Assembly (NCBI RefSeq): GCF_000019085.1
Contig: NC_010321.1
Location: forward strand, 752,501-816,500
Origin: Thermoanaerobacter pseudethanolicus ATCC 33223
Lineage (GTDB): Bacteria; Bacillota; Thermoanaerobacteria; Thermoanaerobacterales; Thermoanaerobacteraceae
DNA length: 64,000 bases
Reading direction: 5' to 3'
The notes under the pieces are model-generated. The model ran no database searches. It saw only the letters and a list, made by a program, of their open reading frames with translations, and was not told where the DNA came from. Of this stretch, positions 14,638 through 61,134 are shown in pieces; positions within the stretch are counted from its first letter, which is position 1; the number at the start of each line of letters is the position of its first letter. A program made the position numbers and the translations under genes.

Positions 14638-14870
14638 CGAAAAACAAAAGCAATCCTGGGAAGTTTGTATTAGGCTAATTTGTTTTCAACCAACGCACCT
14701 TTTTCGGGAATCCGGGTTCATCAGTGGAAGAAATGCCTGCTAAGACAGGACTTCAGAAGCTGATGACAGGGTACCCACCTGCGAGAGCGGGTATGAAAAC
14801 ATAGCCTTACGGCTTCGTGGGACAAAAATTAAAAGTCCTTCCGGAAGGAAGGGCTTTTAATTTTTGTTAC
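14638..14870 (+). ncRNA. ssrS: Structured RNA, probable 6S RNA
   Basis: No protein frame fits this gap. It holds paired segments: ACCTGC/GCGGGT, AGCC/GGCT, an enclosing CCCAC/GTGGG, and GGTTCATCAG/CTGATGAC. It ends in an 18-bp terminator hairpin. A TATAAT lies at 14626-14631, about 8 bases before the proposed 5' end. The elongated fold, length of about 200 nt and proximity to rarA (as for 6S-1 of Bacillus near yrvN) suggest 6S RNA, the regulator that binds housekeeping RNA polymerase. It is not SRP RNA, tmRNA or RNase P by motif. Identity is inferred. Confidence 0.55.
14824..14870 (+). terminator. Terminator of the structured RNA
   Basis: A long stem of AAAATTAAAAGTCCTTCC with GGAAGGGCTTTTAATTTT (one G-T pair) around a GGAA loop, then T-run. 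Confidence 0.85.
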
Positions 14871-42993: not shown

Positions 42994-43342
42994 GTGAGTA
43001 AGTCGGATGGCCGCGTGCGATTTTCGCACGAGGAAAGTCCGAGCTCCACAGGGCAGGGTGCCGGGTAATACCCGGTGGAGGCGACTCCAAGGAAAGTGCA
43101 ACAGAAATATACCGCCTGGCACTCAACTTGCTGAGTGCTGGGTAAGGGTGGAAAGGTGAGGTAAGAGCTCACCAGGGACCAGGCGACTGGTCTGCTCTGC
43201 AAACCCCACCCGGAGCAAGGCGAATAGGAGGGAGTAGGTGGCCCGCCGTTTCCCTCGGGTTATGCCGCTGGAGGTGTCAGGCAACTGACCCCCTAGATAG
43301 ATGGCCATCCTCGACAGAACTCGGCTTACAGACTTGCTCACA
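42994..43342 (+). ncRNA. rnpB: RNase P RNA (type A)
   Basis: Contains the universal core GAGGAAAGTCC with GCTCCACAGGGCAGGGTGCC, then GGGTAA, and the distal conserved AGATAGATGGCC partner before the 3' strand. The ends pair as GTGAG-AAGTC / GACTT-CTCAC. It is the catalytic RNA that matures tRNA 5' ends. A TTGACA lies at 42923 with AT-rich -10 candidates (GATAAT, TAATAT) downstream. The 3' end is followed by a strong terminator. Confidence 0.95.
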
Positions 43343-43350
43343 TGTGTTTA

Positions 43351-51675: not shown

Positions 51676-51738
51676 GGTATTATAATGAAAATCTTATCAG
51701 AGTTTTCTGTTTAAAAACTATTGTATGGAGGTTGTATA

Positions 51739-52512
51739 ATGTACATTCCGACAATTAGCCCTTATGCTTTTAAAATTGGACCTATTGACGTTCATTGGTA
51801 TGGAATTTTTATGGCTATTTCCATTGCTATTGGTGGATATTATTTGTACCGACAAGCTATGAAATTGAACTACGATGAAGATTTTTTGCTTAATCTTTTG
51901 ATGATTGTAGTAATTTCGGGAGTTGTAGGTGCCCGACTTATGTTTGTGTTGGCAAATTACCCTGAGTGGTTTATTAAAGATCCTGTTCAGGTTTTAAAAA
52001 TTTATGAAGGCGGATTATCTTGGCATGGAGCAGTTTTAGGTGGTTTTTTGGCAGGGCTTTATTATTGTCGTAAAAAAGGTGTGAGGATAAATCCTTTGGA
52101 GGATTTTGCTGTTTTAGGACTTTCAATTGGTAATATATTAGTCAGAATAGGCAATATATTTAACCAAGAAGTATTAGGAAGGCCTACAGAATTTGCTTTT
52201 GGCAGATGGCCTGCACAGCTGGTAGGAGTTGCAATGGGAATAATTCTTCTTATAAGGTATTTTTATATACAAAAAAAACATATGCCTGATGGATATCAAT
52301 TTTGGTCTTTTATATTTTATTATCAGTTGATGAGAGGATTAATTGAAGAAACCGTAAGGGATAATCCTTTGATATGGCCTGTATATTTAAATGAAAAATG
52401 GGGAATAGGTTTTTTTACTTTAACTCAGTTAGTAACACCTTTCATTTTAATTTTGGCCTATTGGATGATTAGAAGGGTTTTAAATGACCCCAATAAACAA
52501 TTTTACAATTAA
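51739..52512 (+). CDS. lgt: Prolipoprotein diacylglyceryl transferase
   Basis: A 257-residue membrane enzyme with about seven hydrophobic helices. Signature parts are HWYGIFMAISI, GARLMFVL, YEGGLSWHGAVLGG and RIGNIFNQEVLGRPT, including the catalytic His and the Lgt-signature Asn/Glu/Arg. It attaches diacylglycerol to the lipobox Cys of lipoproteins. The ATG at 51739 is preceded by GGAGG; the TTG at 51721 overlaps that site. The stop is followed at once by the palindromic element. Confidence 0.94.
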   Translation: MYIPTISPYAFKIGPIDVHWYGIFMAISIAIGGYYLYRQAMKLNYDEDFLLNLLMIVVISGVVGARLMFVLANYPEWFIKDPVQVLKIYEGGLSWHGAVLGGFLAGLYYCRKKGVRINPLEDFAVLGLSIGNILVRIGNIFNQEVLGRPTEFAFGRWPAQLVGVAMGIILLIRYFYIQKKHMPDGYQFWSFIFYYQLMRGLIEETVRDNPLIWPVYLNEKWGIGFFTLTQLVTPFILILAYWMIRRVLNDPNKQFYN

Positions 52513-52514
52513 AC

Positions 52515-52815
52515 ACTGCCCTTGAGGCAGTTTCAGACTGTAGACAAACTTTCGAGAATAGGATATTTTGCATAAGGAACGACTTGTGACAAAGCGGCAA
52601 CAAAACTTAGCAAGACCAAGGGTGGAGGCAGGGCCGAAGCCACGGATGGCGGAGGCGGGCACTAAGACAGGGATGTCGAATGTGCCCGGTACCCTGCCAG
52701 AACCCGAAGGTCGAGCTTTAGTTTTGTCGCTTTGGAACATCGGAGTGACGATGCAAAATATCCTATTTTAAAATTTTTGACTTTGTCAACAAGCTGAAAC
52801 TGCCGTTGAGGCAGT
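52515..52815. repeat. Long imperfect palindrome (MITE-like or structured RNA element)
   Basis: Both ends are hairpins (ACTGCC-nTTGA-GGCAGT at 52515 and 52799). They continue into inverted arms GGCAGTTTCAG...GACAAA (52526-52548) and TTTGTC...CTGAAACTGCC (52782-52804). A perfect 17-bp inner pair (52557-52573 with 52751-52767) and further partial pairing (CAAAGCG, CAAAACT) lead to a GC-rich core. The core shows GACC/GGTC, GGGT/ACCC, GGCAGGG/CCCTGCC, GGGCAC/GTGCCC and GACA/TGTC stems. It folds almost end to end. No credible gene is inside; two open frames are by-products of symmetry. A transposase-less mobile element is the simplest reading. Confidence 0.7.
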
Positions 52816-52941
52816 TTTCTTATTTAAGGCAAATTGAATTAATCTTTAACTATTGATAAATCTAAAAGGGAACTACTTTATTTTACAACATTTTAATGGT
52901 AAAATTATATTTGATAAATTTTTTACAGAGGAGCTGAAAAG

Positions 52942-53406
52942 ATGGAAAAAAGAAAAGTTTTTGATGATTTATTAGTTAGGATTGACCAAATGGCAAGAGA
53001 AATTGATGATATGGATGAATTTTATGGTGAAGTTGTTAAGATATTAGCAGACAATGTTCCTTACTACAATTGGACAGGTTTTTATTTCATGAAGGATGGA
53101 GAGTTAGTAATAGGACCTTATATTGGTAGACCTACAGAGCATGTGAGAATTAAAGTAGGACAGGGAGTTTGTGGAAGAGCTGTTGCAGAAAAAAATACTA
53201 TAATTGTTGATGATGTCACTAAAGAAGACAATTATCTTGCCTGCAGCCTTGAGACGAAATCGGAAATTGTAGTGCCAATATGGGCTAATGGCGACATAAT
53301 AGGAGAAATAGATATTGACAGCGATGATTTAGCTGCTTTTGATGAAGAAGATAAAAGATTTTTAGAAAAAGTTGCAGAAATTATAAGTCGAAAACTCAAA
53401 AAATAG
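52942..53406 (+). CDS. GAF-domain protein, free methionine-R-sulfoxide reductase-like
   Basis: A 154-residue single GAF domain. It has YYNWTGFYFM, GQGVCGRAV with C77, and YLACSLETKSEIVVPI with C101, ending in FDEEDKRFLEKVAEII. These match the fRMsr family, which reduces free Met-(R)-sulfoxide through three cysteines. Two are present at matching positions; the first of the classical three appears replaced, with His at position 67. Catalysis may therefore follow a two-Cys route. GAGGAG lies before the ATG. Confidence 0.78.
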   Translation: MEKRKVFDDLLVRIDQMAREIDDMDEFYGEVVKILADNVPYYNWTGFYFMKDGELVIGPYIGRPTEHVRIKVGQGVCGRAVAEKNTIIVDDVTKEDNYLACSLETKSEIVVPIWANGDIIGEIDIDSDDLAAFDEEDKRFLEKVAEIISRKLKK

Positions 53407-53750: not shown

Positions 53751-53966
53751 AGTATTGTTATCAAGATTAAGATTGTATATAGAGGATTGTATGTATGTCA
53801 GAATTGTGGGATTGTAGTAAATGGCGACGTGAATGGAGCAGTAAACATATTACGAAGAGTATCTCCGAATCTTAAAAAAGATAGGGGTAGAGGGTTCTTG
53901 GACAACCCAGTTAGGATAAAAGTATCCTAACGAATCTCCCTTTTCTATAAGAGGGAGAGGTTCAAG
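53751..53966 (+). mobile_element. Decayed IS605/IS607-type element: TnpB C terminus and right end
   Basis: From 53751 the frame reads IVYRGLYVCQNCG, then VNGDVNGAVNILRRVSPN, to TAA 53928. This is the TnpB zinc-ribbon half-site plus the conserved catalytic NxDxNGAxNIL end. The 5' part of tnpB is gone. After the stop lies a TCTCCC/GGGAGA hairpin and GAGGTTCAAG (53957-53966). That arrangement is the usual right end of such elements, where the omega (guide) RNA scaffold ends just before the flanking target DNA. An AACAATAC/GTATTGTT hairpin precedes at 53728-53759. Confidence 0.75.
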
Positions 53967-60910: not shown

Positions 60911-61134
60911 AAAATTAAATATTAAAGCAATGAGGGGGAAAGTAGATATTTAAAGAACATCACAGAGATTGAATGACATAGGCTGAGATCATTCAAATGT
61001 TCTGAATATCGAAGACCACCCCGGAGCTGCGGATGATGAGTCCGAACGGTTATTCCGATATAATACCAGAGTATAAAAAAGAGTGGAACCGCAGATAACC
61101 TCTGCCTCTTTACGGGGTAAGAGGTTTTTTATTT
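60911..61134 (+). promoter_or_regulatory. T-box leader of thrS
   Basis: A 250-base leader with stem I (GAACAT ... ATGTTC), a candidate Thr specifier ACC at 61015 in GAAGACC, and the T-box core AGAGTGGAACCGCAGATAAC (61079-61098). A terminator of AACCTCT/AGAGGTT plus T run (61097-61133) follows. Uncharged tRNA-Thr would pair with the specifier and T-box and favour read-through into thrS. Confidence 0.9.

Follow-up and report, generated by a model that had tools for sequence, protein, structure and literature searches.

What is the long self-complementary stretch that lies between lgt (51721-52512) on its left and a small reductase-type gene (52942-53406) on its right in the window, the 64,000-nucleotide stretch of Thermoanaerobacter pseudethanolicus DNA analysed here (both gene names were taken from the translated sequence)? 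A preliminary description, made from the letters alone, saw a palindrome of about 300 bases with a perfect 17-bp inner pair and a GC-rich core of short stems, and suggested a non-autonomous transposable element or a structured RNA, or the two combined. The palindrome is real. Folded as RNA, positions 52500-52830 reach -148.1 kcal/mol on the plus strand (shuffles -85.6 +/- 4.4, z = -14.1) and -132.0 kcal/mol on the minus strand (z = -11.5), energies far lower than those of shuffled sequence, and no shuffled version was as stable as the native one on either strand. The inverted arms are 76% identical at 52512-52548/52782-52818 and 81% identical at 52542-52573/52751-52782, the perfect inner pair (AATAGGATATTTTGCAT) was found at 52557-52573 and 52751-52767, and the sequence plainly shows the GC-rich core and its short stems. 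The one ORF listed in the element (52480-52740, minus strand, 86 aa) overlaps the structured core. Copies, empty sites, covariation and fold together indicate that the element is both things at once: we read it, with a probability of roughly 0.8, as a MITE that has hairpin-targeting IS1182-family ends and carries as cargo an RNA of the TwoAYGGAY type in which two hairpins are of the CsrA type.

Second copies in related genomes, anticipated by the preliminary description, turned out to be numerous. A covariance model locates 24 copies of the core in the genome of origin (2.36 Mb, one contig), and each of the other nine genomes of the genus Thermoanaerobacter carries the element as well (10 of 10 in total); searches with the element in the sister genus Thermoanaerobacterium gave at most one weaker match per genome. 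Comparison of 111 copies defines the following parts of the element and its borders.

52533-52797, plus strand: MITE proper, 265 bp, TCAGACTGTAGACAAA...TTTGTCAACAAGCTGA; ends from comparing the 111 copies and from the empty sites L101, L102 and L110.
52515-52532, plus strand: left duplicated terminator hairpin (target duplication), T-run lost on the plus strand; direct repeat, 95% to 52799-52817, single in relatives.
52799-52818, plus strand: right terminator hairpin, T-run kept; terminator-like site on the plus strand, identical sequence at the empty site.
52533-52548, plus strand: left terminal inverted repeat TCAGACTGTAGACAAA; matches the end of an IS1182-family IS in sister species.
52782-52797, minus strand: right terminal inverted repeat TCAGCTTGTTGACAAA; matches an IS1182-family IS end.
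52557-52573, plus strand: left arm of the perfect 17-bp inner pair, seen in the sequence; the arms co-vary between subfamilies.
52751-52767, plus strand: right arm of the same pair, on the same evidence.

The terminal hairpins of the preliminary description are present, but they do not belong to the element. The outer hairpins, ACTGCC(C/G)TTGAGGCAGT at 52515-52531 and 52799-52815, form a direct repeat bordering it, and the comparison that had been proposed with empty sites found one in each of three relatives, Thermoanaerobacter wiegelii (L101), Thermoanaerobacter sp. A7A (L102) and Thermoanaerobacter thermocopriae (L110), where the lgt site has a single hairpin. The outer hairpins are the stem-loop of the lgt terminator, duplicated by the insertion, and not ends of the element. 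In isolate Thermoanaerobacter sp. Bu09 an element of another subfamily occupies the same lgt terminator (L103/L254, G005), with its left boundary two bases different; it is probably an independent insertion, and this second insertion suggests that the lgt terminator is a hot spot.

The same arrangement recurs throughout the genus. Just outside the repeat there is a stem-loop on both sides, differing from locus to locus. Abutting flank duplications of 14-31 bp (median 21) were detected in 93 of the 111 full copies, and 18 showed no clear duplication by the criteria used; as a control, when left and right flanks of different copies were paired at random, nine of 2000 pairs satisfied the duplication criterion. 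All 93 duplications form a hairpin of at least four pairs, compared with 47% of shuffled versions, and the length of the duplication follows that of the hairpin, folded within 45 nt of right flank (r = 0.92, within 3 nt in 85 of 93). Since the target hairpins have A-runs on their left, T-runs on their right, or both, they are intrinsic terminators, and a simple ORF call places 31 of 32 long-flanked copies downstream of one gene or more. At lgt, the T-run on the plus strand is found at the right hairpin only. Insertion separates the left hairpin from the T-run and leaves hairpin plus T-run on the right, so termination of the host gene should survive, and the right hairpin with its T-run should be the working lgt terminator.

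Two observations concern variation among the copies. In the genome of origin, the left arm of L014/L024, L015/L025 and L021 contains, at one and the same internal position, an additional segment that ends in cccggcactcaa; this marks either a distinct subfamily or a nested insertion. Near the second hairpin of the core, CGCCTGACGGGG replaces CGAATGTGCCCGG recurrently in several species (L283, L254, L267, L248 and L049), perhaps through recombination between lineages of the element.

Which transposase could move such an element? IS1182 was the first transposase family tried as a partner, and it fitted. An intact IS of sister species, TCAGACTGTTGACAAA...TTTGTCAACAAACTGA, 1562-1570 bp long, has ends that match the terminal repeats TCAGACTGTAGACAAA and TTTGTCAACAAGCTGA; its transposase matches NF033551 (IS1182) with 492 bits (cut-off 270) and the Pfam families PF13751 (DDE_Tnp_1_6), PF05598 and PF01609. 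Among the matches listed, most insertions of this IS also lie between duplicated hairpins, and a decayed IS copy in the Bu09 genome (L079) has a left end exactly of the MITE type. The similarity of MITE and IS is confined to about 16-27 bp at the ends. Derivation of the MITE by internal deletion of the intact IS was considered and rejected, as only the ends align and the interior does not come from the IS. A plain terminator or REP-like palindrome was likewise rejected, on the defined ends, the empty sites and the IS partner. With a non-coding repeat of 265 bp, inverted repeats in common with an IS, a target duplication and an empty site, the element is almost certainly a MITE, and the matching ends make an IS1182-family transposase its most likely mover. 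The genome of origin yielded a single, interrupted IS1182-type remnant in the PF13751 search; because this broken gene is the only one of its type there, present mobility in that genome is doubtful. Elsewhere in the window, 3' of a NifU-like gene, the remnant of a TnpB-like C-terminus was seen at 53780-53931 (Pfam Cas12f1-like_TNB, E 5e-5, below the cut-off), interrupted by stops in other frames.

The interior of the MITE has the following features.

52541-52569, plus strand: promoter-like site TAGACA-17-TATTTT, 9 of 12 matches.
52586-52740, plus strand: TwoAYGGAY-type structured RNA core; RF01731 33.3 bits (52583-52741), genus model R1 183.5 bits.
52641-52648, plus strand: hairpin loop 1, CACGGATG = C-ANGGAN-G; CA and GGA near-invariant, N the most variable of 265 positions.
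52668-52675, plus strand: hairpin loop 2, CAGGGATG = C-ANGGAN-G; GGA near-invariant, N variable.

At the gathering threshold, Rfam has no match at the element site. On the plus strand, RF01731 (TwoAYGGAY) gives a full-length match to the core, at a score under the cut-off of 43 bits, and its best score in the whole genome of origin (36.9 bits) is below the cut-off as well. The preliminary description could not assign the element to a known family, but the core, which scores 33.3 against 43 bits, can be placed next to the TwoAYGGAY RNA. A covariance model, R1, built from 28 copies of the genus Thermoanaerobacter only, detects many RF01731 members from other families, with E-values as low as 9e-12, and, at about 1e-33, the single-copy RNA of Thermoanaerobacterium; E-values from this model are rough. 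Since a model made from this genus alone finds RF01731 members elsewhere, the relation is real, and we have very little doubt that the core is homologous to TwoAYGGAY. At the gathering level, Rfam identifies three RNAs in the window: RNase P class A (42995-43344), 6S RNA (14650-14827) and a T-box leader (60921-61112).

The compensatory changes that had been proposed as a check are present. In the joint alignment, both sides change in 13 of 20 pairs, and 96.5% of cells are paired, compared with 28-52% when the alignment is slid by one to three columns; from one subfamily to another the 17-bp arms change in concert, as columns 27-29 do with columns 231-233. The plus strand folds more stably than the minus strand in 108 of 108 aligned copies. 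On the plus strand G-U cells outnumber A-C cells by 243 to 19, an excess that rests on a few widespread variants, and among rare variants there is no strand asymmetry (19 versus 15). These figures fit a history in which constraint would act on the propagating lineages and copies would decay neutrally after insertion.

The RNA is distributed far beyond the genus. Of the 399 genomes sampled from the phylum, 51 contain RF01731, frequently as several copies. In two genomes of other families (G154 and G067) it again has CAGACTGTAGACAAA-type ends and terminator hairpins duplicated around it, and in two more (G194 and G145) there are possibly similar ends and duplications, which are weaker. The combination of this cargo, these ends and hairpin duplication recurs in at least two other families. 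In G020, some copies of RF01731 have other ends and direct repeats instead of hairpins: copies L335 and L342 lie between direct repeats AAAGATGGTTAAA or TCAAAAATGGTTRCACTGT and may belong to another kind of mobile element that carries the same RNA. In Thermoanaerobacterium, the RNA adjoins a glycerate kinase-like gene; its orientation in L178 is the opposite of that in L181 and L186, loci of different species with the same neighbouring gene, as if it had been inverted between its arms or inserted twice. The cargo has therefore spread with ends of more than one type.

What might the cargo do? The loops in the window read ACGGAT and AGGGAT and, compared with AYGGAY, their second base is free in the genus. 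In loop 1 this N has a variability of 1.58 bits, with C, A and T equally common, and its neighbours A, G, G and A have 0-0.08 bits; loop 2 is similar, with a less sharp pattern. An ANGGAN-type loop with GGA fixed and N free is the pattern of CsrA/RsmE sites. Two strict motifs (CANGGANG) occur on the plus strand in 89 of 111 copies, and on the minus strand none of the 111 has any motif. In other genomes, two motifs (N optional) were found on the plus strand in 53 of 58 RF01731 loci, on the minus strand in none, and in shuffled cores in 0.9%. In the genome of origin csrA adjoins fliW- and flagellin-like genes, and csrA is present in 49 of the 51 sampled genomes with RF01731, compared with 236 of the 348 without it (Fisher p = 4e-6); this is a plain tally of genomes made without phylogenetic correction, and csrA is evidently common without the RNA, too. 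TwoAYGGAY has been proposed as CsrA-binding from its motifs only (PMC4333381). We think it probable, from the loop pattern and its conservation, that the RNA binds CsrA through the two hexaloops.

In an alternative reading, which we consider unlikely, the MITE is purely selfish, and the core is a passenger whose self-complementarity matters as DNA only, for instance in transposase recognition or replication, and whose loops have no present function. Insertion-site orientation is indeed random, rare variants decay neutrally without strand asymmetry, and the 16-bp ends alone could serve the transposase; on the other hand, A-GGA is kept while N is free, both within the genus and across families, compensatory changes extend across families, and the RNA, being single-copy in Thermoanaerobacterium and having other ends in G020, is not tied to the needs of the transposon DNA. 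It is also rather improbable that the RNA binds a partner other than CsrA or serves the life cycle of the element, for instance by stabilising a transcript or regulating the transposase in trans: GGA hairpins are short motifs, from which alone the family was predicted to bind CsrA, but here two loops share the A-N-GGA spacing with a free N, and nearly all genomes with the RNA have csrA. That the stretch is an ordinary 3' regulatory element of lgt, or an elaborate terminator evolved in place, as its position downstream of lgt, its end at the terminator and the cis-regulatory typing of RF01731 in Rfam might suggest, is refuted by the empty lgt sites in three relatives and by copies at unrelated genes across the genus, and has practically no chance of being right.

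For the mobile element with a CsrA-type RNA cargo, the following course of events is proposed. The target would be extruded as a cruciform, the 3' ends of the element would attack the 5' feet of both stems, and gap repair would then copy the whole hairpin. Read-through from the host gene, or else the promoter-like site in the left end (the motif TWGACA-N16-18-TATTTT occurs in 97 of 111 copies), would give rise to the RNA, and many copies might jointly act as a CsrA decoy in trans. Relative to genes and to T-runs, the copies face either way without bias; this argues against a role in cis and fits a trans-acting decoy or no function. A physiologically relevant CsrA sponge is a tentative suggestion. 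Equally speculative is its generalisation, in which many TwoAYGGAY RNAs of the Bacillota would be cargo of mobile elements, at least some of them terminator-seeking, and would together constitute a transposable, dose-setting sponge; if this is true, each new copy would place a decoy at the 3' end of a transcript of the host and leave the terminator unbroken, and the activity of CsrA, for instance in flagellin control, would be set by the number of copies.

As far as our searches reach, the parts are known and their union in one mobile element has not been described; the open-licence literature searched contained neither insertion into terminators with hairpin duplication for a MITE nor a description of the present repeat in Thermoanaerobacter. 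The element connects mobile elements with a functionally uncharacterised RNA family, and it offers a concrete and inexpensive way to test for RNAs that bind CsrA in Clostridia; such RNAs have been predicted in these bacteria, and a demonstration was not found in the literature searched. Its 93 duplications are natural cases of a whole-hairpin, variable-length duplication previously depicted only in a model of stem-loop-directed transposition, and they illustrate how a transposon may insert into terminators and leave a working terminator behind.

Among known systems, the closest in target choice are IS1272 and TnSha1 of the IS1182 family (PMC4923244, PMC5678879). Like the present element, they insert into stem-loops, often terminators, with no sequence preference and in both orientations, and they encode an IS1182-family transposase, as does the partner IS, whereas the MITE itself has none. 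IS1272 removes or replaces the stem-loop, with no target duplication (PMC4923244, PMC5678879); here the whole stem-loop is duplicated, and instead of such a loss we found it on both sides of the copies. In one branch of the model figure in PMC5678879, a cruciform is attacked at its 5' feet and a duplicated stem-loop results, and the hairpin-duplicating elements described here look like that branch. With bacterial MITEs in general the element shares its short, non-coding sequence, IS-type terminal inverted repeats, target duplication and empty sites, but its duplication varies in length and equals a hairpin, and its cargo is a conserved, covarying RNA that exists outside the MITE, too. The core resembles the TwoAYGGAY RNA RF01731 (Weinberg 2010, PMC2864571) in its full-length structure, its two GGA hairpin loops and its Clostridial hosts, and differs from that family as known in scoring under the cut-off and in being the cargo of a MITE; the papers on the motif (PMC2864571, PMC4333381) do not mention mobility. 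Finally, CsrA-sequestering RNAs of the CsrB/RsmY type (PMC4383904) also have paired GGA hairpins of the CsrA type and a proposed role in CsrA titration, but there one gene provides many sites, whereas here each RNA has two predicted sites and the copies are many, dispersed and mobile.
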